A stretch of DNA of 64,000 bases, taken from the NCBI GenBank assembly GCA_014843695.1, contig CM026402.1:19262396-19326395 (forward strand). Direction: 5' to 3'. Below the pieces are notes generated by a model. The model had not been told where the DNA came from and did not search any database. It was given only the letters and a program-made list of their open reading frames with translations. The position numbers and the translations under genes were made by a program. Origin of the DNA: Archivesica marissinica (lineage: Eukaryota > Mollusca > Bivalvia > Venerida > Vesicomyidae). Below are positions 5,963-51,075 of the stretch, in pieces (within the stretch, counting starts at the first letter, position 1; every line of letters begins with the position of its first letter).

Positions 5963-7438
5963 CAGGGAGGTGACCACTCGCCCACATGGTTCACCGGCAG
6001 CGAGGGTAAATAAGCTCAATTATCAGGGAGGCGACTGCTCGCCCACATGGTTCGCCGGCAGCGAGGGTAAATAAGCTCAATCATCTAGGAGGCGACCGCT
6101 CGCCCACATGGTTCGCCGGCAGCGAGGGTAAATAAGCTCAATTATCAGGGAGGCGACCGCTCGCCCACATGGTTCGCCGGCAGCGAGGGTAAATAAGCTC
6201 AATTATCAGGGATGTGACCGCTCGCCCACATGGTTCGCCGGCAGCGAGGGTAAATAAGCTCAATTATCAGGGATGTGACTGCTCGCCCACATGGTTCACC
6301 GGCAGCGAGGGTAAATAAGCTCAATTATCAGGGATGTGACTGCTCGCCCACATGGTTCGCCGGCAGCGAGGGTAAATAAGCTCAATTATCAGGGATGTGA
6401 CTGCTCGCCCACATGGTTCACCGGCAGCGAGGGTAAATAAGCTCAATTATCAGGGATGTGACCGCTCGCCCACATGGTTCGCCGGCAGCGAGGGTAAATA
6501 AGCTCAATTATCAGGGATGTGACTGCTCGCCCACATGGTTCGCCGGCAGCGAGGGTAAATAAGCTCAATTATCAGGGATGTGACCGCTCGCCCACATGGT
6601 TCGCCCGCACGCAGCGAGGGTAAATAAGCTCAATTATCAGGGATGTGACTGCTCGCCCACATGGTTCACCGGCAGCGAGGGTAAATAAGCTCAATTATCA
6701 GGGATGTGACCACTCGCCCACATGGTTCGCCGGCAGCGAGGGTAAATAAGCTCAATTATCAGGGATGTGACTGCTCGCCCACATGGTTCACCGGCAGCGA
6801 GGGTAAATAAGCTCAATATCAGGGATGTGACTGCTCGCCCACATGGTTCACCGGCAGCGAGGGTAAATAAGCTCAATTATCAGGGATGTGACTGCTCGCC
6901 CACATGGTTCACCGGCAGCAAGGTAAATAAGCTCAATTATCAGGGATGTGACCGCTCGCCCACATGGTTCGCGGCAGCGAGGGTAAATAAGCTCAATTAT
7001 CAGGGATGTGACCTGCTCGCCCACATGGTTCACCGGCAGCGAGGGTAAATAAGCTCAATTATCAGGGATGTGACCGCTCGCCCACATGGTTCGCCGGCAG
7101 CGAGGGTAAATAAGCTCAATTATCAGGGATGTGACTGCTCGCCCACATGGTTCACCGGCAGCGAGGGTAAATAAGCTCAATTATCAGGGATGTGACTGCT
7201 CGCCCACATGGTTCACTGGCAGCGAGGGTAAATAAGCTCAATTATCAGGGATGTGACTGCTCGCCCACATGGTTCACCGGCAGCGAGGGTAAATAAGCTC
7301 AATTATCAGGGAGGCGACCGCTCGCCCACATGGTTCACAGGCAGCAAGGGTAAATAAGCTCAATTATCAGGGAGGTGATCGCTCGCCCACATGGTTCGCC
7401 GGCAGCAAGGGTATATAAGCTCAATTATCAGGGAGGCG
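5963..7438. repeat. 61-bp satellite array, copy 1 (about 24 units)
   Basis: Units read gggatgtgac.gctcgcccac then atggttc.ccggcagcgag and ggtaaataagctcaattatca. There are sub-variants (gaggcgac/gatgtgac; ttcacc/ttcgcc). Single-base indels at a few units (near 6605, 6920, 6970 and 7011) look like sequencing errors or decay. The same array in shorter form occurs at 9626-10223. Confidence 0.95.
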
Positions 7439-7666
7439 ACAATACAAACGTAGTAGCAATGTAGAGAATATAATTTCTACACTATCAATTTAAACTCAAT
7501 TAAAGAAAGTTAGCTAACAAATGACAAAGGTTTCAATACGGTGTGAAAAACTGCAAATATAAAACTGGGAAATATTACAATGGGTGGATACATAAGCTCT
7601 ATATGGTGGTTATACACCATTCACAAGGCCATCTCTAACACATCTCAGAGACTGGCTTCCTGCTAA

Positions 7667-7985
7667 CTTGCTAAATGTATACGGTAATCCCTTCCTCTTA
7701 CTAAGTTTGTTTGTTTTGTTTGGCTTCCTGCTAACTCGCTAAATGTATACGGTAATCCCTTCCTCTTACTAAGTTTGCTTGTTTTGTTTGGCTTCCTGCT
7801 AACTTGCTGAATGTATACGGTAATCCCTTCCTCTTACTAAGTTTGTTTGTTTTGTTTGGCTTCCTGCTAACTCGCTAAATGTATACGGTAATCCCTTCCT
7901 CTTACTAAGTTTGTTTGTTTTGTTTGCCTTCCTGCTAACTCGCTAAATGTATACAGTAATCCCTTCCTCTTACTAAGTTTGTTTG
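7667..7985. repeat. 68-bp tandem array, copy 1 (five units)
   Basis: Five units of ggcttcctgctaactcgcta, aatgtatacggtaatccctt and cctcttactaagtttg. Identical to 10450-10768 at offset 2783. Confidence 0.95.
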
Positions 7986-8150
7986 TTTGCTTTGGAGTTT
8001 ACACAAACAGCTTCGGTCAAACCGCGTCTCTCAAGCTATTATTTGTGAAAGAAGACTACGGATGCCTCTCCGGACAGTATTGCAGGCACGGACGAAAACT
8101 CAGGAAGAACCACTGACCTTCCGCAAGTCAGATGGATAGCCGGATAAGGT
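7978..8150 (-). mobile_element. SINE family C fragment, copy 1
   Basis: Contains 'acaaacagcttcggtcaaac', 'ggatgcctctccggacagtattgcaggcacgg' in part, and 'accactgaccttccgcaag', as in 13525-13813, but lacks the tRNA-like end. Duplicated at 10761-10933. Confidence 0.6.
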
Positions 8151-8351
8151 TTGAGACATACTAAAGATTGTCACAGATTAACCAATACAAATAAATTTTA
8201 ATTACGAGCATCACATATTTCAATATTGTCTAAACGTTCTATTGGCCGGCTGCTTAAGATAGGGTTGATTGTAAGATTTAATAACAAACATGTGTTAAAG
8301 ATGGCCATGTCTGACATCGCAGAAGATTTTGTGACTGCATTCATAACTTAC

Positions 8352-8625
8352 CAGCCTCACTATTCTGCCCCAACTTCTCAGGTGAAGGTCGGCCCAGGGC
8401 CTCGGCTTTTATAACCTGTTCATTATTTACATTTTGCTCATGGGCAGTATTGACCTGTTGTTGGGCTAGCTGCCCCTGTGCAAGGTCATATTCCACCCCT
8501 GTGTTAACTTGGGCCTCGCCTTGAGGGTTAGCCTTTTGTATGGGAACCCCTGTATCAACTGCGCCATCTACTGGATGGTGTACATTTTGTACGGGAATCC
8601 CTGAATCAACTGCGCCATCTACTGG
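8352..8625 (-). pseudogene. partial second copy of nucleobindin exon 12, cut by assembly gap
   Basis: This stretch matches 11135-11408 at a constant offset of 2783 bp, with the same donor and reading frame, and runs into a gap of exactly 1000 N. In the compared flanks I noticed a single substitution (8335 C versus 11118 T). It is either a very recent in-frame tandem copy or, more likely, the other allele placed beside the first by the assembler. It should not be counted as an extra exon without read evidence. Confidence 0.7.
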
Positions 8626-9625
8626 NNNNNNNNNNNNNNNNNNNNNNNNNNNNNNNNNNNNNNNNNNNNNNNNNNNNNNNNNNNNNNNNNNNNNNNNNNN
8701 NNNNNNNNNNNNNNNNNNNNNNNNNNNNNNNNNNNNNNNNNNNNNNNNNNNNNNNNNNNNNNNNNNNNNNNNNNNNNNNNNNNNNNNNNNNNNNNNNNNN
8801 NNNNNNNNNNNNNNNNNNNNNNNNNNNNNNNNNNNNNNNNNNNNNNNNNNNNNNNNNNNNNNNNNNNNNNNNNNNNNNNNNNNNNNNNNNNNNNNNNNNN
8901 NNNNNNNNNNNNNNNNNNNNNNNNNNNNNNNNNNNNNNNNNNNNNNNNNNNNNNNNNNNNNNNNNNNNNNNNNNNNNNNNNNNNNNNNNNNNNNNNNNNN
9001 NNNNNNNNNNNNNNNNNNNNNNNNNNNNNNNNNNNNNNNNNNNNNNNNNNNNNNNNNNNNNNNNNNNNNNNNNNNNNNNNNNNNNNNNNNNNNNNNNNNN
9101 NNNNNNNNNNNNNNNNNNNNNNNNNNNNNNNNNNNNNNNNNNNNNNNNNNNNNNNNNNNNNNNNNNNNNNNNNNNNNNNNNNNNNNNNNNNNNNNNNNNN
9201 NNNNNNNNNNNNNNNNNNNNNNNNNNNNNNNNNNNNNNNNNNNNNNNNNNNNNNNNNNNNNNNNNNNNNNNNNNNNNNNNNNNNNNNNNNNNNNNNNNNN
9301 NNNNNNNNNNNNNNNNNNNNNNNNNNNNNNNNNNNNNNNNNNNNNNNNNNNNNNNNNNNNNNNNNNNNNNNNNNNNNNNNNNNNNNNNNNNNNNNNNNNN
9401 NNNNNNNNNNNNNNNNNNNNNNNNNNNNNNNNNNNNNNNNNNNNNNNNNNNNNNNNNNNNNNNNNNNNNNNNNNNNNNNNNNNNNNNNNNNNNNNNNNNN
9501 NNNNNNNNNNNNNNNNNNNNNNNNNNNNNNNNNNNNNNNNNNNNNNNNNNNNNNNNNNNNNNNNNNNNNNNNNNNNNNNNNNNNNNNNNNNNNNNNNNNN
9601 NNNNNNNNNNNNNNNNNNNNNNNNN
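8626..9625. other. assembly gap of exactly 1000 N
   Basis: A round-number run of N, the usual placeholder for a gap of unknown size. Open frames that cross it carry no information. The sequence on its right restarts at the beginning of the 61-bp array already seen on its left. Confidence 0.99.
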
Positions 9626-10223
9626 AGGGAGGTGACCACTCGCCCACATGGTTCACCGGCGGCGAGGGTAAATAAGCTCAATTATCAGGGAGGCGATTGC
9701 TCGCCCACATGGTTCGCCGGCAGCGAGGGTAAATAAGCTCAATCATCTAGGAGGAGATCGCTCGCCCACATGGTTCGCCGGCAGCGAGGGTAAATAAGCT
9801 CAATTATCAGGGAGGAGATCGCTCGCCCACATGGTTCGCCGGCAGCGAGGGTAAATAAGTTTTGGGTGTGGGTGTGTTTGTGGGTGGGGTTTAAGCTTAA
9901 ATATGAGGGATGTGACTGCCGCACCACATTGGTTCGCTGGCCAGCGAGGGTAAATAAGCTCGATTACATGGATGGTTGCTGCTCGCCCACATGGTTCACT
10001 GGCAGCGAGGGTAAATAAGCTCAATTATCAGGGATGTGACTGCTCGCCCACATGGTTCACCGGCAGCGAGGGTAAATAAGCTCAATTATCAGGGAGGCGA
10101 CCGCTCGCCCACATGGTTCACAGGCAGCAAGGGTAAATAAGCTCAATTATCAGGGAGGTGATCGCTCGCCCACATGGTTCGCCGGCAGCAAGGGTATATA
10201 AGCTCAATTATCAGGGAGGCGAC
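9626..10223. repeat. 61-bp satellite array, copy 2 (about 10 units)
   Basis: The first units reproduce the special leading units of copy 1 (ggaggtgaccactcgccc; aatcatctaggagg), and the last units are identical to those of copy 1. Fewer units lie between. Units at about 9855-9985 are abnormally divergent. Confidence 0.92.
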
Positions 10224-10449
10224 AATACAAACGTAGTAGCAATGTAGAGAATATAATTTCTACACTATCAATTTAAACTCAATTAAAGAAAGTTAGCTAA
10301 CAAATGACAAAGGTTTCAATACGGTGTGAAAAACTGCAAATATAAAACTGGGAAATATTACAATGGGTGGATACATAAGCTCTATATGGTGGTTATACAC
10401 CATTCACAAGGCCATCTCTAACACATCTCAGAGACTGGCTTCCTGCTAA

Positions 10450-10768
10450 CTTGCTAAATGTATACGGTAATCCCTTCCTCTTACTAAGTTTGTTTGTTTT
10501 GTTTGGCTTCCTGCTAACTCGCTAAATGTATACGGTAATCCCTTCCTCTTACTAAGTTTGCTTGTTTTGTTTGGCTTCCTGCTAACTTGCTGAATGTATA
10601 CGGTAATCCCTTCCTCTTACTAAGTTTGTTTGTTTTGTTTGGCTTCCTGCTAACTCGCTAAATGTATACGGTAATCCCTTCCTCTTACTAAGTTTGTTTG
10701 TTTTGTTTGCCTTCCTGCTAACTCGCTAAATGTATACAGTAATCCCTTCCTCTTACTAAGTTTGTTTG
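10450..10768. repeat. 68-bp tandem array, copy 2
   Basis: Five units matching 7667-7985 base for base, as far as I compared. Confidence 0.95.
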
Positions 10769-10933
10769 TTTGCTTTGGAGTTTACACAAACAGCTTCGGT
10801 CAAACCGCGTCTCTCAAGCTATTATTTGTGAAAGAAGACTACGGATGCCTCTCCGGACAGTATTGCAGGCACGGACGAAAACTCAGGAAGAACCACTGAC
10901 CTTCCGCAAGTCAGATGGATAGCCGGATAAGGT
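10761..10933 (-). mobile_element. SINE family C fragment, copy 2
   Basis: Same sequence as 7978-8150 at offset 2783, lying upstream of the exon 12 donor in genomic order. Confidence 0.6.
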
Positions 10934-11134
10934 TTGAGACATACTAAAGATTGTCACAGATTAACCAATACAAATAAATTTTAATTACGAGCATCACATA
11001 TTTCAATATTGTCTAAACGTTCTATTGGCCGGCTGCTTAAGATAGGGTTGATTGTAAGATTTAATAACAAACATGTGTTAAAGATGGCCATGTCTGACAT
11101 CGCAGAAGATTTTGTGATTGCATTCATAACTTAC

Positions 11135-11815
11135 CAGCCTCACTATTCTGCCCCAACTTCTCAGGTGAAGGTCGGCCCAGGGCCTCGGCTTTTATAACCT
11201 GTTCATTATTTACATTTTGCTCATGGGCAGTATTGACCTGTTGTTGGGCTAGCTGCCCCTGTGCAAGGTCATATTCCACCCCTGTGTTAACTTGGGCCTC
11301 GCCTTGAGGGTTAGCCTTTTGTATGGGAACCCCTGTATCAACTGCGCCATCTACTGGATGGTGTACATTTTGTACGGGAATCCCTGAATCAACTGCGCCA
11401 TCTACTGGATGGTGAACATTTTGTACGGGAACCCCTGTATCAACTGCGCCATCTACTGGATGGTGAACATTTTGTACGGGAACCCCTGTGTCGACTGGGA
11501 CATCCCTTTGAGGGTGAACTTTTTGTACAGGAACCCCCGTACCAATTGGGACCTCATGTTGAATTTGTTGAGTGTCTTGCACAGGTACCCCAGTATCAGC
11601 TGGGGCCTCCCCTTGTTGATGCTGACCCAGGGAATCATTTACTGCATGTCCTGGGACATTTTGACCTTGCATGACCTGGTCCTGACCTTGCATGACTGCG
11701 GCAATACCTTGATTTTGTATGACCTGACCCTGACCTTGAATGACCTGGGCCTGACCTAGACCATCAGAGACGGGGACAACTTGATTTACTGCTGCGTTGA
11801 CAACCTTTATCTGGC
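11135..11815 (-). CDS. nucleobindin exon 12: Val/Gln-rich repeats
   Basis: This 681-nt exon (phase 1 to 1, residues about 556-783) encodes Gln/Val segments (QAQVIQGQGQVIQ), then a 17-residue repeat NVHHPVDGAVDTGVPVQ about four times, and ends RPSPEKLGQNSEAG. The acceptor is tggtaaatttgcag and the donor GCTG|GTAAGT. If the donor were ignored, an in-frame TGA follows after two codons, but the donor is strong and the phase joins exon 13 perfectly. The part at 11135-11408 is repeated almost exactly at 8352-8625. The repeat unit is 51 bp, so copy number could vary between alleles. No known domain is recognised. Confidence 0.82.
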
Positions 11816-12036: not shown

Positions 12037-12540
12037 CTTTACCCAGTTCCACCTCGTTTGGAGGACGCGGTATATGGCGACCTTGACCTTGTGGCATATG
12101 TCCAGGTGGCATCTGATCTTGATCCATTGCTGGTGGTCCACCTTGCATCCTACCTTGACCCATTGCTGGCGGTCCACCTTGCCTATGACCCTGACCCATT
12201 CCTTGTGGTCCACCATGACCCTGACCCATTCCTTGCGGTCCACCTTGCATCTGACCATGACCCATTCCTTGTGGTCCACCTTGCATCTGACCCTGACCCA
12301 TTGCTGGTGGTCCACCTTGGCCCATCATAGGTCCACCTTGCACCTGACCCTGAGGAGCATGGTCTTGCATTTGACCCTGCTGCCTCATCTGTTGCTGTTG
12401 TTCATGTGGCTGAAACTGTTGCTGTTGACCCTGCTGCCTCATCTGTTGCTGTTGTTCATGTTGCTGAAACTGTTGCTGTTGGCCCTGTTGCTGAAACTGC
12501 TGCTGTTGATGGTCAAACTGTTGCTGCTGGTGGGGCATAC
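12037..12540 (-). CDS. nucleobindin exon 11: poly-Gln and Gly-Pro-Met repeat tail
   Basis: This 504-nt exon (phase 1 to 1, residues about 388-556) first encodes blocks of Gln with His, Phe and Met (HQQQQFDHQQQQF; QQHEQQQQMRQQ). It then encodes imperfect repeats of the type GQMQGGPQGMGQG, ending PRPPNEVELGK. The acceptor is atctcctttttatag and the donor AAAG|GTTTGT. There are no stop codons across the exon and the phases match both neighbours. Codon-level repetition suggests growth by replication slippage. The segment should be disordered. Vertebrate NUCB proteins have a short Gln run at about this place, so this may be a large expansion of it. Confidence 0.82.
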
Positions 12541-14019: not shown

Positions 14020-14074
14020 CTTGACCTCCTTGTGGCATCTGCATGTGCTGTACATTGGGATCCTGTCCCAGAGG
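14020..14074 (-). CDS. nucleobindin exon 10: short Gln/Met linker
   Basis: This 55-nt exon (phase 0 to 1) encodes PLGQDPNVQHMQMPQGGQ. It lies between acceptor ctttgtttcag and donor CAAG|GTATGT. Its composition matches the low-complexity tail and its phases fit exons 9 and 11 exactly, which is the main support. There is no clear counterpart in vertebrate nucleobindins. Confidence 0.75.
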
Positions 14075-15017: not shown

Positions 15018-15143
15018 CACCATGCCCGGTTGTGCCATGTTAGAATCCAATCCCTGTGCTCTCATTCTATCTTCGTGTTCTCGTAACATGTTTTCGTATC
15101 TTTCATATTCTTCATCTGTGAAATTTTGTTCTTCATCGACAGT
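15018..15143 (-). CDS. nucleobindin exon 9: post-EF-hand acidic helix
   Basis: This 126-nt exon (phase 0-0, residues 328-369) encodes TVDEEQNFTDEEYERYENML followed by REHEDRMRAQGLDS and NMAQPGMV. It corresponds to the family's Thr-Val-Glu...Tyr-Thr-Glu-Glu-Glu segment, where vertebrate proteins begin their leucine zipper. The zipper is short here; the sequence turns Met/Gln/Pro-rich within the exon. The acceptor is ctgtttacaag and the donor GTG|GTATGT. Confidence 0.9.
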
Positions 15144-16458: not shown

Positions 16459-18362
16459 CCCTTGCCCTCATAGAAGCACCTCTTCTCCACCAATAGACAT
16501 ACATTAACCCTTGCCCTCATAGAAGCACCTCTTCATGCCACTACCAATACGACATACATTAACCCTTGCCCTCATAGAAACACCTCTTCATGCCACTACC
16601 AATACGACATACATTAACCCTTGCCCTCATAGAAGCACCTCTTCATGCCACTACCAATACGACATACATTAACCCTTGCCCTCATAGAAGCACCTCTTCA
16701 TGCCACTACCAATACGACATACATTAACCCTTGCCCTCATAGAAACACCTCTTCATGCCACTACCAATACGACATACATTAACCCTTGCCCTCATAGAAG
16801 CACCTCTTCATGCCACTACCAATACGACATACATTAACCCTTGCCCTCATAGAAGCACCTCTTCATGCCACTACCAATACGACATACATTAACCCTTGCC
16901 CTCATAGAAACACCTCTTCATGCCACTACCAATACGACATACATTAACCCTTGCCCTCATAGAAGCACCTCTTCATGCCACTACCAATACGACATACATT
17001 AACCCTTGCCCTCATAGAAGCACCTCTTCATGCCACTACCAATACGACATACATTAACCCTTGCCCTCATAGAAACACCTCTTCATGCCACTACCAATAC
17101 GACATACATTAACCCTTGCCCTCATAGAAGCACCTCTTGACGCCATTACCAATACCACATACATTAACCCTTTCCCTCATAGAAGCACCTCTTGACGCCA
17201 TTACCAATACCACATTCATTAACCCTTCCCTCATAGAAGCACCTCTTGACGCCATTACCAATACGACATACATTAACCCTTTCCTTCATAGAAGCACCTC
17301 TTGACGACATTACCAATAACATACATTAACCCTTTCCCTCATAGAAGCACCTCTTGATGCCATTACCAATACGACATACATTGACACTGTAGTAGCCAAA
17401 CCAATGTTCATAAACCCTTTCCCTCATAGAAGCACCTCTTGACGCCATTACCAATACGACATACATTGACAATTTGTAGCCAAACCAATGTTCAAACCCT
17501 TTCCCTCATAGAAGCACCTCTTGACGCCATTACCAACACGACATACATTGACAATGTAGTAGTCAAACCAATGTTCATGACCCTTTCCCTCATAGAAGCA
17601 CCTCTTGACGCCATTACCAACACGACATACATTGACAATGTAGTAGTCAAACCAATGTTCATGACCCTTTCCCTCATAGAAGCACCTCTTGACGCCATTA
17701 CCAACACGACATACATTGACAATGTAGTAGCCAAACCAATGTTCATGACCCTTTCCCTCATAGAAGCACCTCTTGACGCCATTACTAACACGACATACAT
17801 TGACAATGTAGTAGCCAAACCAATGTTCATAACCCTTTCCCTCATAGAAGCACCTCTTGACGCCATTACCAACATGACATACATTGACAATGTAGTAGCC
17901 AAACCAATGTTCATAACCCTTTCCCTCATAGAAGCACCTCTTGACGCCATTACCAATACGACATACATTGACAATGTAGTAGCCAAACCAATGTTCATAA
18001 CCCTTTCCCTCATAGAAGCACCTCTTGACGCCATTACCAACACGACATACATTGACAATGTAGTAGCCAAACCAATGTTCATAACCCTTTCCCTCATAGA
18101 AGCACTCTTGATGCCATTACCAACACGACATACATTGACAATGTAGTAGCCAAACCAATGTTCATTAACCCTTTCCCTCATAGAGGCACCTCTTCATGCC
18201 ATTACCAACACGACATACATTGACAATGTAGTAGCCAAACCAATGCCCATAATAAAGGCCAGAATCTCATGTAATCCCAGTAATATCTATGGAGGTGGGA
18301 TAGATATGGCGACTATAGTAGATATTATAATATATTAACCTAAATCTCTATGAAGGAAATGG
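16459..18362 (+). mobile_element. MITE family 2 whose left end is expanded into a satellite
   Basis: TTAA at 16455-16458 precedes CCCTTGCCCTCATAGAAGC. About 15 units of 55 bp (cctcatagaagcacctcttc ... acatacattaaccctt) are followed by shorter transition units and then about nine 84-bp units that also include 'gacaatgtagtagccaaacc' and 'aatgttcat'. Then follow the normal element interior (aggtgggatagatatggcga) and the right end (tctatgaaggaaatgg). The right TTAA is split by the element at 18366-19148. Confidence 0.85.
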
Positions 18363-19264: not shown

Positions 19265-19447
19265 CTTCCAGCCGTCGTCTTTCTGGAATTCTTGCGATGC
19301 TGTGTAGTTCATGAATTCCTCCAGACTGATTAAACGGTTGTTATCTTGGTCCAGCTCTCCAAACACATGTTCACGCATGCGTGCCATATCCTCATAACGC
19401 TCTCGCATGTCGTCTTCTGGAATATTAGGATCATAAACCTGATCCAA
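19265..19447 (-). CDS. nucleobindin exon 8: acidic linker and EF-hand 2
   Basis: This 183-nt exon (phase 0-0, 61 codons, residues 267-327) starts LDQVYDPNIPEDDMRERYED, the family's conserved linker (Val-Tyr-Asp-Pro...Glu-Asp-Asp-Met-Arg). It continues MARMREHVFGEL and then the second EF-hand loop DQDNNRLISLEE (residues 299-310). Ligand positions 1, 3, 5, 9 and 12 are Asp, Asp, Asn, Ser and Glu; the central Gly is replaced by Arg, as in vertebrate nucleobindins. It ends FQKDDGWK, matching the conserved Gly-Trp after the hand. This exon alone identifies the gene. A TA-flanked inverted-repeat element ends about 115 bp downstream in transcription (18366-19148). Confidence 0.97.
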
Positions 19448-19695
19448 CTGAAAATAAATATCATTTAGTATAAATTTCATCTGTTTGCGAAACAAGCTTT
19501 AGAAACTTTTAATAATCATTCCAGCTGGCGCGGATGAAAGCGTGTAATTATGTGGTTCTTAGTTTGGGAGAAAACCAGAGCCACCGGAGACAACATGCCT
19601 GTTAAATTTGGCAAAGAATTATTCAAAGAAGGAGAATTTTTAATGTTGAGGCCCCTTTCAGCTCACCCTGTTTATTTTTTTTTCTAATTTCTTAC

Positions 19696-19754
19696 CTCTT
19701 TCTGGAAGAGAGCTTCTACTTCATCTTGATCCAAAAACCCATTACCATCTATAT
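19696..19754 (-). CDS. nucleobindin exon 7: EF-hand 1 calcium loop
   Basis: This 59-nt exon (phase 1 to 0, residues 247-266) encodes the first EF-hand loop DIDGNGFLDQDE followed by VEALFQKE. Loop positions 1, 3, 5, 9 and 12 are Asp, Asp, Asn, Asp and Glu, with Gly at 6, so it should bind calcium. Asp1 is split across the junction with exon 6a or 6b. The acceptor is cctgttttacag and the donor GAG|GTAAGA. This is the constitutive half of EF-hand 1; the variable half is supplied by exon 6. Confidence 0.95.
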
Positions 19755-19932
19755 CTGTAAAACAGGAGAAGATATTAAGCTTACCCACACAGAAGCATCT
19801 CTTTACACCATTACCAATACCACATACCGGTACATTAACAATGTAGCAACCAAACCAATGTTCATAATAAAGGCCAACATCTCATGTAGTACCTGTAATA
19901 TCTATGTTCATGCAAATTTACTTTTTTCTTAG

Positions 19933-20118
19933 AACTTATATTAATCACTTTCGAGACCTAATTCCTGATGGAATCCATCGCCACGAGGGAGAGAGAAGAG
20001 GCAACATGGAATTTAAATGCCGTGTCTAAGGGCACAATCGCAACGGCTCCTGTGGACCTCGAACTGCAAGCCTTTCGCAACTGAAGCAAACGCGCTACCA
20101 TTGCGCTATCACGACTTC
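19933..20118 (-). mobile_element. SINE family A
   Basis: Reverse orientation of 15949-16175: 'ctgatggaatccatcgccac', 'ggaatttaaatgcc', 'gctatcacgacttcc'. Confidence 0.8.
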
Positions 20119-20551
20119 CACTAATATCTATGGATGTGGGGTAGATATGCTGACTGGCTATCTGCTGATTGATGGTTAAATGGTTGTAATACTATGTTAA
20201 GTATGGAGATATAGAAGTATATAAGCATAGATCTGTATGTGGGAGACAGATAAACTTGCATCAATACCCTTACTAAGCACACAACTGTGGATCGATGAAT
20301 ATAAATTCTAAACTTGCAATCTCCTGTATATAATGTGTTCTCTATACACTCTATGTTACCAACGTGTCTGCTGAAAGACCAGTAGTGTCAGCTGTTTGAT
20401 ACACCAACATGGTCAAGGCGGTTGTCGTCTTCGCCATCGCCAATGCCATCATCATCATCATCATCATCATTATCAAGATCTTCTCTGAAAGCCTCAGTGT
20501 AAACAAACTGTACATCATGCTATTATGTTTATTATTATGTATGTATTAATT

Positions 20552-20671
20552 GCGGGGACGTAGACATGTTTTCCTGGGCAAACTTAGCCTACATGGCCTG
20601 GCTGAGTATCGAACCCGGGACCTATCAATTCCAAATCCGACGCTCTACCACTGGACCAAGGATGCCACTAC
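20552..20671 (-). mobile_element. tRNA-like SINE fragment
   Basis: Contains 'tatcgaacccgggacc' (B-box complement) and 'gctctaccactggacc' (A-box complement) in tRNA spacing. The stems do not pair fully, so it is not called a tRNA gene. Confidence 0.5.
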
Positions 20672-20786
20672 TTATGACTATTGTAAGCAACAGGTTTATG
20701 GAATGAAAGTGTTTGCACCTGCTGGCAATAACCATAATCTATGCCATCCGCATCAATGGAACAGTTACTCCATTACAATACCGTAC

Positions 20787-20877
20787 CATGCATGTTGAAG
20801 AAGGTTTTAGGGTCAAAGTCCTCTGGGTCCATATGGTCCGATTCTTCCCATACCCCCTCCAACTGAGCCTTGCTGCC
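20787..20877 (-). CDS. nucleobindin exon 6b (downstream copy of duplicated EF-hand-1 entry exon)
   Basis: This is the alternative 91-nt version, encoding GSKAQLEGVWEESDHM then DPKTFFNMH, in phase 0 to 1 like exon 6a. The acceptor is gggattattgcag and the donor CATG|GTACGG. It differs from 6a at eight residues, mainly exchanging Lys/Thr for Glu/Ser before the helix end and Lys-Leu for Asn-Met just before the calcium loop. Splicing 6a to 6b would read 6b one base out of frame and reach TGA within about 22 codons, so a double-inclusion transcript would be a nonsense-mediated decay target. The 44-nt spacer is also near or below the usual minimum for splicing in most animals. Confidence 0.9.
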
Positions 20878-20921
20878 CTGCAATAATCCCACATAGAAAC
20901 TGGATTACAATGAACACGTAC

Positions 20922-21012
20922 CATGCAGTTTGAAGAATGTTTTAGGATCAAAATCACTTGAATCCATATGGTCTGTTTTTTCCCATACATCTTCTAACTG
21001 GTCTTTACTGCC
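20922..21012 (-). CDS. nucleobindin exon 6a (upstream copy of duplicated EF-hand-1 entry exon)
   Basis: This 91-nt exon (phase 0 to 1) encodes GSKDQLEDVWEKTDHM then DPKTFFKLH. The last base is the first base of the Asp codon that opens the EF-hand 1 loop in exon 7. The sequence matches the nucleobindin block Gly-Ser-x-x-Gln-Leu-x-x-Val-Trp-Glu-Glu ... Pro-Lys-Thr-Phe-Phe-x-x-His, the incoming helix of EF-hand 1. A second 91-nt copy follows after a 44-nt intron; 22 of 30 residues are identical. The acceptor is gtatattgcag and the donor CATG|GTACGT. Because the exon is asymmetric (91 nt), skipping both copies or using both disrupts the reading frame. Confidence 0.92.
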
Positions 21013-21145
21013 CTGCAATATACAAGTTCGCCTATCAGCAAACCATAGATAAAGCATCTAATTCTTAACCTTTAGCATGCTGTCGGCGAAACGATGAATG
21101 AAATGAAGGCAGATAACAAATGTGTAATATTTTTCGTATTTTTCC

Positions 21146-21300
21146 TAGAAAGTAGGGCTTGTGACATTTCATTTTCCTAGAAAGTAGGGCGTGTGACATT
21201 TCATTTTCCTAGAAAGTAGGGCGTCACATTTCATTTTCCTATTAAGTAGGGCATGTGACATTTCATTTTCCTAGAAAGTAGGGCGTGTGACATTTCATTC
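21146..21300. repeat. about 32-bp tandem array, five copies
   Basis: Five copies of catttcattttcctagaaag followed by tagggcgtgtga, one with a deletion. Confidence 0.9.
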
Positions 21301-22063
21301 AAATCGTCTTGATTTCACCTACACTGTACAGCGGTTAATTATCCATTTATTAATATTAGCCCCAATTGCGAAACAATTTCTTGCAACATTAGTTTAACCG
21401 CTCTTATGATCCCCAATACTGATGGAATACATAGCTATGAGGAAGAAAGAAAGCATTTAGTTTAATCATATGTTCTTGTAAATCAATAGTTAATATGTTA
21501 TGCACATGTAGATACAATACATAGTATGAAAATGCAAATGGTTTTGGTGAAAAGTTTTAGAAACATTAGACATTGGCCCTCACCAGAAAGCATTGTGGAA
21601 GTGGCGATTAACCCTATTTTTGATAAGTCATAATTATCATACCGTCACATCTGGTAAGGAAACAACATTAAAAACAAAGAATTCCAACTGATAGGACCAA
21701 TCTATATTTCGGGATAAATCAGATTTTATATGTCCAGGGAGGTAATAGAAAAACCAGCAGCCACCCATTCACCTGTCTTGCTCAAGACAACATCAACCAG
21801 TTTCATTTCTCAAAATGGCATAACCAAATCTACATAGGGTTGTACATGTCATAAGAAAAATGACCTTCCATGTACACCCTAGGAACATGTACATAGTCCT
21901 CAAACACCCATTCAACGCTCTACCATACAACACAATATCTTTACTATGAATAATTGATACAACGAAACATATATTGAACTATATTGAAACATTCAGCTTT
22001 CCCCAATAGATTTTCATATTCAGTTACATAAATTTATCACAAATTGTTGCATTGGGTTGCATA
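21301..22063. other. intron 5 sequence, no feature recognised
   Basis: Unique-looking AT-rich intron sequence. No exon, RNA or repeat recognised on either strand. Confidence 0.5.
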
Positions 22064-22763
22064 TGGTGTGGTGTACAATGCATAGGGTGCGGTGTACAAT
22101 GTATAGGGTGTGGTGTACAATGTATAGGGTGTGGTGTACAATATATAGGGTGTGGTGTACAATGTATAGGGTGCGGTGTACAATGTATAGGGTGTGGTGT
22201 ACAATGTATAGGGTGTGGTGTACAATGTATAGGGTGTGGTGTACAATGTATAGGGTGTGGTGTACAATGTATAGGGTGCGGTGTACAATGTATAGGGTGC
22301 GGTGTACAATGTATAGGGTGTGGTGCGGTGTACAATGCATAGGGTGTGGTGTACAATGTATAGGGTGTGGTGTACAATGTATAGGGTGTGGTGCGGTGTA
22401 CAATGTATAGGGTGTGGTGTACAATGTATAGGGTGTGGTGTACAATGTATAGGGTGGCGGTGTACAATGTATAGGGTGCGGTGTACAATGTATAGGGTGC
22501 GGTGTACAATGTATAGGGTGCGGTGTACAATGTATAGGGTGCGGTGTACAATGCATAGGGTGCGGTGTACAATGTATAGGGTGCGGTGTACAATGTATAG
22601 GGTGTGGTGTACAATGCATAGGGTGCGGTGTACAATGTATAGGGTGCGGTGTACAATGTATAGGGTGCGGTGTACAATGTATAGGGTGCGGTGTACAATG
22701 TATAGGGTGCGGTGTACAATGTATAGGGTGCGGTGTACAATGTATAGGGTGCGGTGTACAATG
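22064..22763. repeat. 21-bp satellite, about 33 copies
   Basis: Units of gggtg(t/c)ggtgtacaatgtata. The T/C choice gives runs of one state (T mostly on the left, C mostly on the right). Two units carry an extra 'gtgcg' and one an extra G. Confidence 0.95.
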
Positions 22764-22832
22764 CACTTTGGATTACAGGGACAGATAGAGGTATTCACTC
22801 AACGATAGGATTTTAACTTTGTTTGTTTATTA

Positions 22833-23092
22833 GGGATTTACGCCTGCATCAGCACCATATTGGGCTATATCGCCGGCGGAGAGTTTACCTAACAACACCT
22901 TTCCTGGGCAGGCTCCAGCAGTTAACCAGTATTTGGTGCATCAATCTCCATTAGAAACTACCAACTTTTTCATATAAATGAGACACAGCCTGAGCGCCAT
23001 AGTCAGCGACATTAAACCGTGACTCGAAACCGTGACCATAAGTTACAGTGGTATACAAGTCAGCGACCGTAACCACTCGACCACGGAGGCGG
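22833..23092 (-). mobile_element. SINE family D (tRNA-derived)
   Basis: 'ttacgcctgcatcagcacca', 'acctaacaacacctttcctg', 'ggcaggctccagcagttaac' and the tRNA-like end 'gtaaccactcgaccacgg'. Confidence 0.75.
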
Positions 23093-23137
23093 ACCTAGAA
23101 TATTTTGATATATATATTGATATAGTAACAAACTTAC

Positions 23138-23323
23138 AGGGTGATGGACTTTGGGATGATCCTGGTGACGTGTCTTCATTTGTTGAAGTTCTTCCTCGCG
23201 AACCTTTCTCTTCTCATCGTCCAGATTCTTTAGTTCCTCTCTACGTTCATGCTCTTTTTCCATCTCGTATGCTTTAAATTCTCCCCTCCGCTTTTTGTCT
23301 ATTTCATCTAAATCACTAGTGGC
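23138..23323 (-). CDS. nucleobindin exon 5: charged coiled coil
   Basis: This 186-nt exon (phase 0-0, 62 codons, residues 155-216) encodes a highly charged helix. It starts ATSDLDEIDKKRRGEFKAYE, continues EKEHERREEL, and ends HQDHPKVHHP. The order Glu-Phe-Lys-x-Tyr-Glu-Met, EHERR, and the final HPKV-x-x-P turn are diagnostic for nucleobindins and separate the coiled coil from EF-hand 1. Acceptor tctctcccag and donor CCT|GTAAGT are both strong. A SINE of the GCCTGCATCAG family sits immediately downstream in the intron, at 22833-23092. Confidence 0.95.
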
Positions 23324-23472
23324 CTGGGAGAGAGATAAACGGAAATTATAAAACCGATCTGATATTTGTACGGCCTAGTTTTGGGTAAAGTTTTGAACGA
23401 TTCAACTACTTCTATAAGGACCACAATGGAAATAAGAGAGCTTTGTTGCTCTCTTTTTGTGTCATCCTTGGT

Positions 23473-25200
23473 ATTGATTATATGTCATCTACTCTGCACG
23501 TTAATGCTCACATGTACTATGTTGACATTGATTATATGTCATCTACTCTGCACGTTAATGCTCACATGTACTATGTTGACATTGATTATATGTCATCTAC
23601 TCTGCACGTTAATGCTCACATGTACTATGTTGACATTGATTATATGTCATCTACTCTGCACGTTAATGCTCACATGTACTATGTTGACATTGATTATATG
23701 TCATCTACTCTGCACGTTAATGCTCACATGTACTATGTTGACATTGATTATATGTCATCTACTCTGCACGTTAATGCTCACATGTACTATGTTGACATTG
23801 ATTATATGTCATCTACTCTGCACGTTAATGCTCACATGTACTATGTTGACATTGATTATATGTCATCTACTCTGCACGTTAATGCTCACATGTACTATGT
23901 TGACATTGATTATATGTCATCTACTCTGCACGTTAATGCTCACATGTACTATGTTGACATTGATTATATGTCATCTACTCTGCACGTTAATGCTCACATG
24001 TACTATGTTGACATTGATTATATGTCATCTACTCTGCACGTTAATGCTCACATGTACTATGTTGACATTGATTATATGTCATCTACTCTGCACGTTAATG
24101 CTCACATGTACTATGTTGACATTGATTATATGTCATCTACTCTGCACGTTAATGCTCACATGTACTATGTTGACATTGATTATATGTCATCTACTCTGCA
24201 CGTTAATGCTCACATGTACTATGTTGACATTGATTATATGTCATCTACTCTGCACGTTAATGCTCACATGTACTATGTTGACATTGATTATATGTCATCT
24301 ACTCTGCACGTTAATGCTCACATGTACTATGTTGACATTGATTATATGTCATCTACTCTGCACGTTAATGCTCACATGTACTATGTTGACATTGATTATA
24401 TGTCATCTACTCTGCACGTTAATGCTCACATGTACTATGTTGACATTGATTATATGTCATCTACTCTGCACGTTAATGCTCACATGTACTATGTTGACAT
24501 TGATTATATGTCATCTACTCTGCACGTTAATGCTCACATGTACTATGTTGACATTGATTATATGTCATCTACTCTGCACGTTAATGCTCACATGTACTAT
24601 GTTGACATTGATTATATGTCATCTACTCTGCACGTTAATGCTCACATGTACTATGTTGACATTGATTATATGTCATCTACTCTGCACGTTAATGCTCACA
24701 TGTACTATGTTGACATTGATTATATGTCATCTACTCTGCACGTTAATGCTCACATGTACTATGTTGACATTGATTATATGTCATCTACTCTGCACGTTAA
24801 TGCTCACATGTACTATGTTGACATTGATTATATGTCATCTACTCTGCACGTTAATGCTCACATGTACTATGTTGACATTGATTATATGTCATCTACTCTG
24901 CACGTTAATGCTCACATGTACTATGTTGACATTGATTATATGTCATCTACTCTGCACGTTAATGCTCACATGTACTATGTTGACATTGATTATATGTCAT
25001 CTACTCTGCACGTTAATGCTCACATTTACTATGTTGACATTGATTATATGTCATCTACTCTGCACGTTAATGCTCACATGTACTATGTTGACATTGATTA
25101 TATGTCATCTACTCTGCACGTTAATGCTCACATGTACTATGTTGACATTGATTATATGTCATCTACTCTGCACGTTAATGCTCACATGTAATATGTTGAT
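23473..25200. repeat. 54-bp satellite, 32 near-identical copies
   Basis: Exactly 32 units of attgattatatgtcatctac, tctgcacgttaatgctcaca and tgtactatgttgac. Only one internal base differs (a T near 25025) plus changes in the last unit. Two plus-strand frames are open because 54 is divisible by three. It lies in intron 4. Confidence 0.97.
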
Positions 25201-25494
25201 ATTGATTTTGTATTTGTTTTATGACATATATTCTATTTTTACCAGAATAAAACTATCTATCTATATATATATAAATGTGTAAATATTGAATTTCATACCA
25301 GTATGAACTAATGTGACACGGGATAAACTATAAATTTCATAAAAATAATTATAAAACTGTGTTATACAACAGTGCCTGGAACACAATATCCCCCCCCCCC
25401 TCCAATACATTTTACACTGCAAATTGTTGGCATGTGAAGGTTGCACAACAGATACTTTCTACATGTATGTACATATTGCATTGAATAGGAAAAC

Positions 25495-26231: not shown

Positions 26232-26326
26232 CTTTCTAATAAGCTTTTCCAAATCTTTTGCCTCAAAGGAGTGTGGATTTTTTATATCCACATGGTGGAG
26301 GTAATTTTCATCCATTTTCTGTATGC
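26232..26326 (-). CDS. nucleobindin exon 4: basic/Leu-rich linker
   Basis: This 95-nt exon (phase 1 to 0) supplies residues 123-154. It contains HVDIKNPHSFEAKDLEKLI, which matches the family's conserved block in which a His/Thr-Phe-Glu-Ala-Arg/Lys-Asp-Leu-Glu motif precedes the central coiled coil. The acceptor is tttctttctacag and the donor is AAG|GTATCG. In vertebrates this area lies next to the region described as DNA-binding or basic. No unusual residue is visible. It lies between the 139-bp satellite of intron 3 and the 54-bp satellite of intron 4. Confidence 0.92.
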
Positions 26327-26829: not shown

Positions 26830-29800
26830 AGTATTACGTAACCAGGACAGTTGCCATGGCAACAACTATAAGCGAGGAACCCACAAGTTGGATGGATGTA
26901 CATAGTGAAGTAACACCTATGTGATGGGATTGGAATAGATCTAACGCTCGGGGCTAGGATTCATGAATTTACGTAACCAGCCAGGACAGTTGCCATGGCA
27001 ACAACTATAAGCGAGGAACCCACAAGTTGGATGGATGTACATAGTGAAGTAACACATATGTGATGGGATTGGGATAGAGCTCCCACTCGGGGCTAGGATT
27101 CATGAATTTACGTAAACAGACAGTTGCCATGGCAACAACTATAAGCGAGGAACCCACAAATTGGATGAATGTACAGAGTGAAGTAACACCTATGTGATGG
27201 GATTGGGATAGATCTAACACTCGGGGCTAGGATTCATGAATTTACGTAACCAGCCAGGACAGTTGCCATGGCTACAACTATAAGCGAGGAACCCACAAGT
27301 TGGATGGATGTACATAGTGAAGTAACACATATGTGATGGGATTGGGATAGAGCTCCCACTCGGGGCTAGGATTCATGAATTTACGTAAACAGACAGTTGC
27401 CATGGCAACAACTATAAGCGAGGAACCCACAAATTGGATGAATGTACAGAGTGAAGTAACACCTATGTGATGGGATTGGGATAGATCTAACACTCGGGGC
27501 TAAGATTCATGAATTTACGTAACCAGCCAGGACAGTTGCCATGGCAACAACTATAAGCGAGGAACCCACAAATTGGATGAATGTACAGAGTGAAGTAACA
27601 CCTATGTGATGGGATTGGGATAGATCTAACACTCGGGGCTAGGATTCATGAATTTACGTAACCAGCCAGGACAGTTGCCATGGCAACAACTATAAGCGAG
27701 GAACCCACAAGTTGGGTGAATGTACAGAGTGAAGTAACACCTATGTGATGGGATTGGGATAGATCTAACACTCGGGGCTAAGATTCATGAATTTACGTAA
27801 CCAGCCAGGACAGTTGCCATGGCAACAACTATAAGCGAGGAACCCACAAATTGGATGGATGTACAGAGTGAAGTAACACCTATGTGATGGGATTGGGATA
27901 GATCTAACACTCGGGGCTAGGATTCATGAATTTACGTAACCAGCCAGGACAGTTGCCATGGCAACAACTATAAGCGAGGAACCCACAAATTGGATGAATG
28001 TACAGAGTGAAGTAACACCTATGTGATGGGATTGGGATAGATCTAACACTCGGGGCTAAGATTCATGAATTTACGTAACCAGCCAGGACAGTTGCCATGG
28101 CAACAACTATAAGCGAGGAACCCACAAATTGGATGAATGTACAGAGTGAAGTAACACCTATGTGATGGGATTGGGATAGATCTAACACTCGGGGCTAGGA
28201 TTCATGAATTTACGTAACCAGCCAGGACAGTTGCCATGGCAACAACTATAAGCGAGGAACCCACAAATTGGATGAATGTACAGAGTGAAGTAACACCTAT
28301 GTGATGGGATTGGGATAGATCTAACACTCGGGGCTAGGATTCATGAATTTACGTAACCAGCCAGGACAGTTGCCATGGCTACAACTATAAGCGAGGAACC
28401 CACAAGTTGGATGGATGTACATAGTGAAGTAACACATATGTGATGGGATTGGGATAGAGCTCCCACTCGGGGCTAGGATTCATGAATTTACGTAAACAGA
28501 CAGTTGCCATGGCAACAACTATAAGCGAGGAACCCACAAATTGGATGAATGTACAGAGTGAAGTAACACCTATGTGATGGGATTGGGATAGATCTAACAC
28601 TCGGGGCTAGGATTCATGAATTTACGTAACCAGCCAGGACAGTTGCCATGGCTACAACTATAAGCGAGGAACCCACAAGTTGGATGGATGTACATAGTGA
28701 AGTAACACATATGTGATGGGATTGGGATAGAGCTCCCACTCGGGGCTAGGATTCATGAATTTACGTAAACAGACAGTTGCCATGGCAACAACTATAAGCG
28801 AGGAACCCACAAATTGGATGAATGTACAGAGTGAAGTAACACCTATGTGATGGGATTGATCTAACACTCGGGGCTAGGATTCATGAATTTACGTAACCAG
28901 CCAGGACAGTTGCCATGGCAACAACTATAAGCGAGGAACCCACAAGTTGGGTGAATGTACAGAGTGAAGTAACACCTATGTGATGGGATTGGGATAGATC
29001 TAACACTCGGGGCTAAGATTCATGAATTTACGTAACCAGCCAGGACAGTTGCCATGGCAACAATTATAAGCGAGGAACCCACAAATTGGATGGATGTACA
29101 GAGTGAAGTAACACCTATGTGATGGGATTGGGATAGATCTAACACTCGGGGCTAGGATTCATGAATTTACGTAACCAGCCAGGACAGTTGCCATGGCAAC
29201 AACTATAAGCGAGGAACCCACAAATTGGATGAATGTACAGAGTGAAGTAACACCTATGTGATGGGATTGGGATAGATCTAACACTCGGGGCTAGGATTCA
29301 TGAATTTACGTAACCAGCCAGGACAGTTGCCATGGCAACAACTATAAGCGAGGAACCCACAAATTGGATGAATGTACAGAGTGAAGTAACACCTATGTGA
29401 TGGGATTGGGATAGATCTAACACTCAGGGCTAGGATTCATGAATTTACGTAACCAGCCAGGACAGTTGCCATGGCAACAACTATAAGCGAGGAACCCACA
29501 AATTGGATGAATGTACAGAGTGAAGTAACACCTATGTGATGGGATTGGGATAGATCTAACACTCGTGGCTAGGATTCATGAATTTACGTAACCAGCCAGG
29601 ACAGTTGCCATGGCAACAACTATAAGCGAGGAACCCACAAATTGGATGAATGTACAGAGTGAAGTAACACCTATGTGATGGGATTGGGATAGATCTAACA
29701 CTCGGGGCTAGGATTCATGAATTTACGTAACCAGCCAGGACAGTTGCCATGGCAACAACTATAAGCGAGGAACCCACAAATTGGATGGATGTACAGAGTG

Positions 29801-30545
29801 AAGTAACACCTATGTGATGGGATTGGGATAGATCTAACACTCGGGGCTAGGATTCATGAATTTACGTAACCAGCCAGGACAGTTGCCATGGCTACAACTA
29901 TAAGCGAGGAACCCACAAATTGGATGGATGTACAGAGTGAAGTAACACCTATGTGATGAGATTGGGATAGAGCTCCCACTCGGAGCTAGGATTCATGAAT
30001 TTACGTAACCAGCCAGGACAGTTGCCATGGCAACAACTATAAGCGAGGAACCCACAAGTTGGATGGATGTACATAGTGAAGTAACACATATGTGATGGGA
30101 TTGGGATAGAGCTCCCACTCGGGGCTAGGATTCATGAATTTACGTAAACAGACAGTTGCCATGGCAACAACTATAAGCGAGGAACCCACAACTTGGATGA
30201 ATGTACAGAGTGAAGTAACACCTATGTGATGGGATTGGGATAGATCTAACACTCGGGGCTAGGATTCATGAATTTACGTAACCAGCCAGGACAGTTGCCA
30301 TGGCAACAACTATAAGCGAGGAACCCACAAATTGGATGAATGTACAGAGTGAAGTAACACCTATGTGATGGGATTGGGATAGATCTAACACTCGGGGCTA
30401 GGATTCATGAATTTACGTAACCAGCCAGGACAGTTGCCATGGCAACAACTATAAGCGAGGAACCCACAAATTGGATGAATGTACAGAGTGAAGTAACACC
30501 TATGTGATGGGATTGGGATAGATCTAAAACACTCGGGGCTAGGAA
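26830..30545. repeat. 139-bp satellite with X-box-like palindrome, 27 units
   Basis: Twenty-seven units of about 139 bp (shorter 134-bp variants carry 'aaacagacagttgcc'). Each contains gttgccatggcaac or a variant, 'ataagcgaggaacccacaa', 'gtgaagtaacacctatgtga' and 'cactcggggctaggattcat'. 134+139 pairs form 273-bp higher-order units at 27005-27493 and 28385-28867. It fills much of intron 3. Confidence 0.97.
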
Positions 30546-35272: not shown

Positions 35273-35399
35273 TGTTCATCTGCTGCATTTTTTGTTTAGC
35301 GAGCATCCGTAGACGATTCATCTCCTGACGCTTGATTTCATCAAGCCTCTCGCGAATCTGATGAGAGACCAGATCTAGGTGCATGGCAATCTTTCCGTT
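35273..35399 (-). CDS. nucleobindin exon 3: end of nesfatin-like segment with Lys-Arg site
   Basis: This 127-nt exon (phase 0 to 1) encodes about 42 residues (81-122). It begins [20 protein letters not shown] and continues [13 protein letters not shown]. In vertebrate NUCB2 the equivalent segment ends nesfatin-1 just before a Lys-Arg convertase site; here Lys103-Arg104 is at the matching place. If the signal peptide is cut after residue 20, residues 21-102 would be 82 long, the same as vertebrate nesfatin-1. The cleavage itself is inference. The remainder is a basic, Met/Gln-rich helix. The acceptor is ttttattttag; the donor ACA|GTACGA is weaker than others in the gene. Confidence 0.9.
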
Positions 35400-43290: not shown

Positions 43291-43390
43291 TGGTAGTAAG
43301 CTTACAATGTAGGTGTATAATGTTGTATGTATCAATGTGCTGGATGTGGTAGTAAGCTTACAATGTAGGTGTATAATGTTGTATGTATCA
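43291..43390. repeat. array border duplication, about 56 bp twice
   Basis: 'agtaagcttacaatgtaggt' and 'gtataatgttgtatgtatca' occur twice, joined by one satellite-like unit 'atgtgctggatgtggt'. Confidence 0.85.
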
Positions 43391-47910: not shown

Positions 47911-48018
47911 CTTTATATCACTTGTATTCATTACTTCCAACCGTTTACGGAACGTTTCATCTTCCTCGAGTGCCGATATAATCTCGCTCAGATATCGGTT
48001 ATACTCTAAGCGCGACGT
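47911..48018 (-). CDS. nucleobindin exon 2b (downstream copy of duplicated nesfatin-core exon)
   Basis: This is the second 108-nt, phase 0-0 version of the nesfatin-core exon, with acceptor cattgtttcag and donor AAG|GTTTGA. It encodes LEYNRYLSEIISALEEDETF and ends MNTSDIK. The hydrophobic heptad positions, both tyrosines, the EED acidic cluster and the terminal DIK are the same as in exon 2a. Residues at positions 1-3, 7, 11, 14-15, 22, 26, 29 and 32-33 differ. Both copies are open, have good splice sites and differ conservatively, which suggests both are used rather than one being a pseudo-exon. Mutually exclusive use with 2a is the simplest reading; joint inclusion would add 36 residues in frame. 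Confidence 0.88.
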
Positions 48019-48100: not shown

Positions 48101-48208
48101 CTTTATATCGGTCATATTCATTTCCTCAAGTTTTTTACGGAATGACTCATCCTCCTCTAATGCCACGACTATCTCTTTGAGATATCTGTCATACTCAAGA
48201 CCAAATCC
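48101..48208 (-). CDS. nucleobindin exon 2a (upstream copy of duplicated nesfatin-core exon)
   Basis: This 108-nt exon encodes 36 residues in phase 0-0, between a pyrimidine-rich acceptor (ttattttcag) and donor AAG|GTTTGC. The peptide contains LEYDRYLKEIVVALEEDESF and ends MNMTDIK. It aligns with the tyrosine-rich start and amphipathic helix of vertebrate nucleobindin, the region called the nesfatin-1 mid segment (M30). A paralogous exon of exactly the same length and phase lies 82 nt downstream; 24 of 36 residues are identical. The divergent positions are mostly on the helix surface and at the N-terminal three residues. Because the exon is symmetric, either copy or both could be included without breaking the frame. 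One copy alone gives the family-typical length. Confidence 0.9.
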
Positions 48209-50943: not shown

Positions 50944-51075
50944 CGGGTCCTCTTCACCGTCCTCCTCGTCCGGAGAAGCTCCCTCTACAGGCTTCACGTC
51001 CGGCTGTACAGGAGGACATGTGATTTCGTGCATCACAAACACAACTGTTCCCAATAACATTAACCACCTCATCAT
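50944..51075 (-). CDS. nucleobindin coding exon 1: signal peptide and acidic propeptide start
   Basis: This 44-codon exon begins at a tandem Met-Met. It encodes a hydrophobic stretch (MLLGTVVFVM, residues 6-15) typical of a signal peptide, then a Pro/Glu/Asp-rich segment ending DGEEDP (residues 39-44). It ends in phase 0 at a strong donor (CCG|GTAAGT). The first ATG of the pair is taken as the start because a possible acceptor (ttcccattctag, exon edge 51082) lies only 7 nt upstream, so any earlier exon would be non-coding. If the signal peptidase cuts after Cys20, 24 residues from this exon enter the mature peptide. The N-terminus of nucleobindins is poorly conserved, so the assignment rests on the signal peptide, the phase and the fit to the next exon. 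Confidence 0.8.

Follow-up and report, generated by a model that had tools for sequence, protein, structure and literature searches.

The substitution of one tandemly duplicated exon for another is already known, EF-hand cases included. In vertebrate 2-oxoglutarate dehydrogenase, one of the OGDH exons 4a and 4b holds a calcium-binding motif, and the pair works as an on/off switch; the intron between the two is 118-131 nt long in birds and mammals (PMC7969005, PMC9177970). In OGDH, the distance from 5' splice site to branch point is 25-41 nt and falls short of the roughly 50 nt proposed as a threshold, a limit also cited for other genes (PMC7969005). ACTN1 and ACTN4 likewise possess mutually exclusive exons that alter an EF-hand, and calcium binding is kept in one version only (PMC9741552). 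Among bivalves, scallop muscle myosin has mutually exclusive exons in the loop-1 to switch-1 region, as described in PMC3912159. The nucleobindins of vertebrates are encoded by two genes, NUCB1 and NUCB2 (calnuc, nesfatin precursor), and a leucine zipper and a DNA-binding region have been named for nucleobindin (PMC8361300). Among the open-licence papers listed by our search, titles and abstract openings gave no report of duplicated or mutually exclusive exons in nucleobindins. The first-pass annotation of this locus had been aware of no such pair in nucleobindins, which fits this result.

In this study, a nucleobindin gene of the bivalve Archivesica marissinica was placed in the window, that is, the whole 64,000-nt stretch of DNA analysed, and its exon 6 was found in two neighbouring copies, 6A and 6B (Table 1). 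We consider it highly likely that these copies form a tandem-duplicated, mutually exclusive exon pair in a single-locus bivalve nucleobindin gene, in which spacer and frame enforce the use of one copy and the choice tunes EF-hand 1. The locus differs from each of the systems above. Compared with OGDH, the clam has its calcium-binding loop in exon 7, which both versions share, and a shorter spacer of 44 nt. Unlike ACTN1/ACTN4, the clam swaps the entering helix; of the loop, both versions share everything after the opening base of the first Asp codon. The molluscan muscle myosin heavy chain clusters show the same tandem architecture, in bivalves, in another gene. In the same genome, the muscle myosin heavy chain has a duplicated exon pair, 93 nt per copy and flanked by AG and GT, with 147 nt between the two; from its motif, we take the duplicated exon to hold switch 1. 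Since 93 is a multiple of three, frame does not police the choice in myosin, whereas it does in exon 6.

Table 1. Features of the nucleobindin locus and the myosin exon pair of the same genome. Splice sites and frames were used to place exons 1 to 11, which span 51072 to 12037; positions refer to the window unless marked as genome positions.
Feature	Position	Strand	Remark
Exon 1	50944..51072	-	start codon, hydrophobic N-terminus, CPPVQP
Exon 2A	48101..48208	-	108 nt, phase 0-0; corresponds by homology to M30, the active core of nesfatin-1
Exon 2B	47911..48018	-	tandem copy of 2A, 108 nt, phase 0-0
Exon 3	35273..35399	-	dibasic KR site (LDEIKRQEM)
Exon 4	26232..26326	-	
Exon 5	23138..23323	-	common upstream partner of 6A/6B
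Exon 6A	20922..21012	-	91 nt, phase 0 to 1, upstream of 6B; helix, linker and EF-hand 1 entering helix
Spacer 6A/6B	20878..20921	-	44 nt, GT-AG
Exon 6B	20787..20877	-	91 nt, phase 0 to 1, downstream of 6A
Exon 7	19696..19754	-	loop and exiting helix of EF-hand 1; shared downstream partner of 6A/6B
Exon 8	19265..19447	-	EF-hand 2
Exon 9	15018..15143	-	
Exon 10	14020..14074	-	
Exon 11	12037..12540	-	Gln/Gly/Pro-rich repeats; last exon placed
Myosin exon pair (L006)	genome C5:100289375-100289467 and 100289615-100289707		

The protein spliced with 6A (isoform A) matched PF25434 (NUCB1_N) at 158.4 bits against a cut-off of 27 (E 1.7e-46) and EF-hand_7 at 38.6 bits against 30, so that an NUCB1-like N-terminal domain is followed by an EF-hand pair, as expected of a nucleobindin. 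Nine distinct PDB sequences were matched at E 1e-3 or better, the best being human nucleobindin 1 (1snl, E 2.8e-29; next 5.9e-5). These results bear out the nucleobindin identity first assigned to the gene. The domain order is that of NUCB1 and NUCB2, including the KR site, whose residues K100/R101 were invariant in 31 aligned relatives. An NCBIfam EF-hand family was also considered for P0003, one of the related proteins; at 24.7 bits against 120 the match fell far below the cut-off and was taken to reflect shared EF-hands only. A search of the 1.54-Gb genome with the nucleobindin of Ruditapes (all 44 candidates scored, E at most 1e-3) placed all 11 matches at this locus, both copies of exons 6 and 2 included, and no nucleobindin paralogue was found elsewhere at E 1e-3. 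Thus, the clam genome holds one locus with two duplicated exon pairs where vertebrates hold two genes. When exons 1-10 were compared with the minus strand of the window by tblastn (E < 0.05; the repetitive exon 11 was excluded), pairs 2 and 6 were the only duplicated exons among the matches listed.

Reading the minus strand of 19500-23400 showed that each copy of exon 6 has its own AG and GT sites, is entered in phase 0 and left in phase 1. Both acceptors end in ttgcag|GGCAG, and the donors are ATG|gtacgt (6A) and ATG|gtacgg (6B). The translations, GSKDQLEDVWEKTDHMDSSDFDPKTFFKLH for 6A and GSKAQLEGVWEESDHMDPEDFDPKTFFNMH for 6B, are identical at 22/30 residues, and the exons at 70/91 bases. The first Asp of the loop, DIDGNGFLDQDE, is completed by AT from exon 7. 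The coordinates, lengths, phases, splice sites, residue identity and spacer length reported by the first-pass annotation all hold. Chance likeness of the two copies was ruled out: 6A as a tblastn query recovers 6B at E 5.9e-14, and among 77 open AG-91-GT segments of the window in phase 0 (47 minus, 30 plus, 6A and 6B counted in), the best identity to 6A, apart from that pair, was 4/30. The 226-base stretch with both copies has a single match in the 1.54-Gb assembly. Mutually exclusive exons have been recognised as neighbouring internal exons with sequence similarity, equal frame and like length (PMC5740500), and 6A and 6B (91 and 91 nt) show all of these properties. The same definition also calls for transcripts in which each copy connects to both flanking exons, and for joint inclusion only where it breaks the frame, as would be expected of 6A and 6B. 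Between the two copies, pS is 0.73 and pN 0.14 (Fisher test on rounded counts, p 7e-6). Synonymous sites between the copies of exon 6, and of exon 2, appear near saturation while the proteins are kept; therefore, both copies have probably been coding for a long time.

Copy types were then compared in relatives, using the best 120 of 833 protein matches for exons 6 and 2; one region search gave 18 matches and another none. The 6A sequence is identical at 28/30 residues to the exon in Ruditapes, P0003 and P0005, and 6B is identical at 28/30 to the exon of the Mercenaria protein model P0020, with which it has Ala4, Gly8, Pro17-Glu18 and Asn28-Met29 in common. P0003 (431 residues on a 1439-nt contig) and P0005 (681 residues on a 2384-nt contig) are intron-free, judged by contig and protein length, and are presumably cDNA assemblies. 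Across the constitutive columns, the window agrees with Ruditapes at 234/276, P0003 at 232/275, P0005 at 231/275, Mactra at 229/274, Dreissena at 210/274, Mya at 198/275 and Mercenaria at 161/245, the last value being depressed because P0020 is without a counterpart of exons 8-9. P0020 joins its exon 7 counterpart straight to its exon 10 counterpart and omits EF-hand 2, as a skipped isoform or through a modelling error, and its gene model may be imperfect. The tree in which the window's 6A and 6B are constrained as sisters was rejected (p-AU 0.00059, for an A/B grouping itself suggested by the prior comparison of exon 6), and a recent, clam-only duplication is thereby ruled out. Judged from these exons, the duplication is older than the clam's split from Ruditapes and Mercenaria.

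The duplication could even be as old as the divergence of this clam and the mussels. Two Mytilus galloprovincialis proteins, P0013 and P0015, are identical at 271/272 constitutive residues and only at 20/30 in exon 6; they lie on contigs of unequal size and hence belong to separate assemblies. Divergence confined to exon 6 points to alternative exons, while an allelic or gene-model cause keeps some residual weight. In the best tree the B-like exons form one clade (support 65/79), a weak indication of deep kinship across clams and mussels; trees with the five mussel rows together (p 0.28) or the nine clam rows together (p 0.39) were not rejected. A search for DNA of relatives gave no match in the genome-contig or viral-contig collections.

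These comparisons also bear on the reading that one copy, most likely 6B, is decaying or rarely used, such that only one protein version is made in practice. The four best protein matches (P0003-P0006) are of the A type, and outgroup exons are closer to A (Owenia, 26/30 to A and 24/30 to B). However, 6B retains an open frame, both splice sites and a pN far below pS, and it has a near-identical counterpart in Mercenaria. Two features of 6B, Ala4 and the uncharged residue 28, also recur in Mya and some Mytilus models, though over the whole exon these resemble A as much as B (identity to A/B of 30: Mya 23/23, Mytilus P0015 21/21; likewise Dreissena 22/22). Decay or disuse of one copy is therefore quite improbable. 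Use of both copies in A. marissinica would instead be expected, and several protein versions are probably made from the one gene.

In the proposed mechanism, each mature mRNA would contain exon 5, one of 6A and 6B, and exon 7, joined in that order. The first barrier to joint use would be the length of the spacer, 44 nt, which leaves no room for a branch point at the usual distance from both splice sites. Its sole yUnAy branch-point-like site lies 10 nt from the 5' splice site, and a UNA site lies at 16 nt. Both predicted sites fall below the distance of about 50 nt at which steric interference is proposed, as would any other branch point inside the 44-nt spacer. Human introns of 43-65 nt do get spliced (PMC8363638), so the spacer is no absolute bar; steric exclusion is nevertheless likely, by analogy with the genes for which the threshold was proposed. 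Among 629 human clusters, 57 (9%) were potential steric cases (PMC5740500). The second barrier would be the frame. Splicing in silico showed that 6A joined to 6B gives 21 residues and then TGA as the 22nd codon, and that skipping both copies gives a stop after one residue. This confirmed the frame logic of the first-pass annotation, which had placed a TGA about 22 codons into the second copy and a frame shift where both are skipped. Transcripts with both copies or neither would thus meet an early stop and are predicted targets of NMD. In humans, exon lengths break the frame on joining in 377 (60%) of the 629 clusters (PMC5740500).

The expectation of one copy per transcript, raised along with that logic, fits the relatives, whose protein models carry each type, with 0/125 retrieved proteins joining A and B types in tandem when all 125 were checked for tandem copies. 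A Drosophila simulans model, P0019, has an identical 133-residue block twice, which was read as a model or assembly repeat. The class of U2/U12 incompatibility was set aside: the donors gtacgt/gtacgg and the acceptors ttgcag look U2-type. Local RNA folding is unremarkable for 6B (z -0.3) and the spacer (z -0.1) and modest for 6A (z -2.06), and Rfam gave no match on 19500-23400. An eight-pair hairpin lies just 5' of the 6A acceptor (window 21044-21025, minus) and could restrict access to it; it came from a bacterial promoter/terminator scan that otherwise has no bearing on an animal gene.

If 6A and 6B were not strictly exclusive, joint splicing across the spacer could act as a poison-exon switch, with NMD reducing the amount of protein. 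The stop at codon 22 of 6B would suit such a switch, and so would the splicing of human introns as short as the spacer (43-65 nt, PMC8363638) and the joining reads reported for 83 (22%) of the 377 frame-shifting human clusters (PMC5740500). The spacer, however, is below the proposed threshold (PMC7969005), with its branch-point-like sites at distances of 10 or 16 nt, and we hold a poison-exon role to be very improbable. An assembly artefact, with collapsed haplotypes or a mis-joined paralogue putting the two copies side by side, is extremely improbable: a likely haplotype overlap does occur at the N gap of the same window (6821-8625 and 9626-11408, 95.9% identical), but 6A and 6B share only 70 of their 91 bases, each groups with another relative's exon, Mytilus too shows two versions of exon 6, and no paralogue was found in the genome at E 1e-3.

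The swap would bear on the calcium sensor itself. An AlphaFold model of P0003, built with a 31-sequence alignment, had block-mean pLDDT values of 91-96 over the exon 6 region, and its best PDB match was again 1snl (E 1.1e-3). Exon 6 corresponds to residues 214-243 of P0003, where the model shows one helix at 216-225 and, after a linker, a second at 236-243 that enters EF-hand 1; the loop starts at Asp244. The copies differ at positions 4, 8 and 12 in the first helix, 13, 17 and 18 in the linker, and 28 and 29 in the last turn before the loop, and the net charge is -4 for 6A and -6 for 6B. The ligands in the loop are unchanged; therefore, tuning rather than loss of calcium binding is expected. 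In the proposed mechanism, the swap would exchange helix, linker and entering helix while the exon 7 loop stays constant, such that calcium binding of EF-hand 1, and whatever it gates, may be tuned and not abolished. In mammals, calcium on the EF-hands of nucleobindin buries the Galpha-i-binding motif (PMC10943482). By analogy, tuned calcium binding could shift a Galpha-i switch in the clam.

The second duplicated pair, exons 2A and 2B, was absent from the first-pass annotation and was found in the follow-up of the same gene. The two copies are identical at 24/36 residues and separated by a spacer of 82 nt, with a pS of 0.77 and a pN of 0.225 (Fisher test on rounded counts, p 9e-6). M30 is the 30-residue active core of nesfatin-1, with its sequence given in PMC3516497; aligned to it, with the last codon of exon 1 counted, 2A agrees at 15/30 positions and 2B at 12/30. 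The invariant KR of exon 3 follows this region. A nesfatin precursor has been reported from oyster (PMC8398477). Frame enforces no exclusivity for this pair, since both copies are phase 0-0 and joint use stays in frame, and the 82-nt spacer may allow the two to be used together. A region search for relatives of exon 2B gave six candidates, none at E 1e-3, in a database whose clustering at 90% identity could hide them.

Taken together, the two pairs raise a further reading, which we regard as unlikely: that the bivalve nucleobindin is a two-by-two splice switch, combining 2A/2B versions of the nesfatin-1 core with 6A/6B settings of a calcium-gated EF-hand, and that exon duplication here does what the NUCB1/NUCB2 gene duplication did in vertebrates. 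If so, 2A and 2B would be two versions of a secreted-peptide candidate, and 6A and 6B would set the EF-hand that masks or uncovers the Galpha-i-binding site in mammals. A hint of such a parallel comes from position 28 of exon 6, which precedes the loop by three residues: Lys stands there in 6A and in mouse NUCB2, an uncharged residue in 6B (Asn) and in human NUCB1 (Ile in 1snl); the Gln at this position in the A-like Mytilus version counts against it. Apart from this reading, 6A and 6B offer a compact natural experiment: the two EF-hand versions have the same loop and diverge solely in the helices before it, and at 44 nt the spacer is brief enough to probe, beyond vertebrates, the steric rule for exclusive splicing. 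If the two versions differ in calcium affinity, splice choice would be tied to the calcium control of a non-receptor G-protein regulator. With its place on the nesfatin-1 core region, the exon 2 pair allows a direct test in molluscs of whether one gene diversifies a peptide hormone.

Some other features of the locus were observed. Past exon 3, 35 nt run to a second GT donor (window 35272-35238, minus) and resemble a 12-residue extension, GTEVLGSIAKYG, of the Ruditapes protein, which is slightly altered in Mercenaria; the segment is 35 nt here, not 36, and would shift the frame, through an indel or an assembly error. The 1.8-kb stretches that flank the 1000-N gap at 8626-9625 include C-terminal repeats of the nucleobindin frame and are a probable haplotype overlap in the assembly. 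A scan of 17000-48600 for tandem arrays with a score of 400 or more found long arrays in the introns, at 37818-43298, 26842-30544, 23473-25207, 22061-22763 and 17000-18252, with periods of 30, 139, 54, 21 and 55/84.
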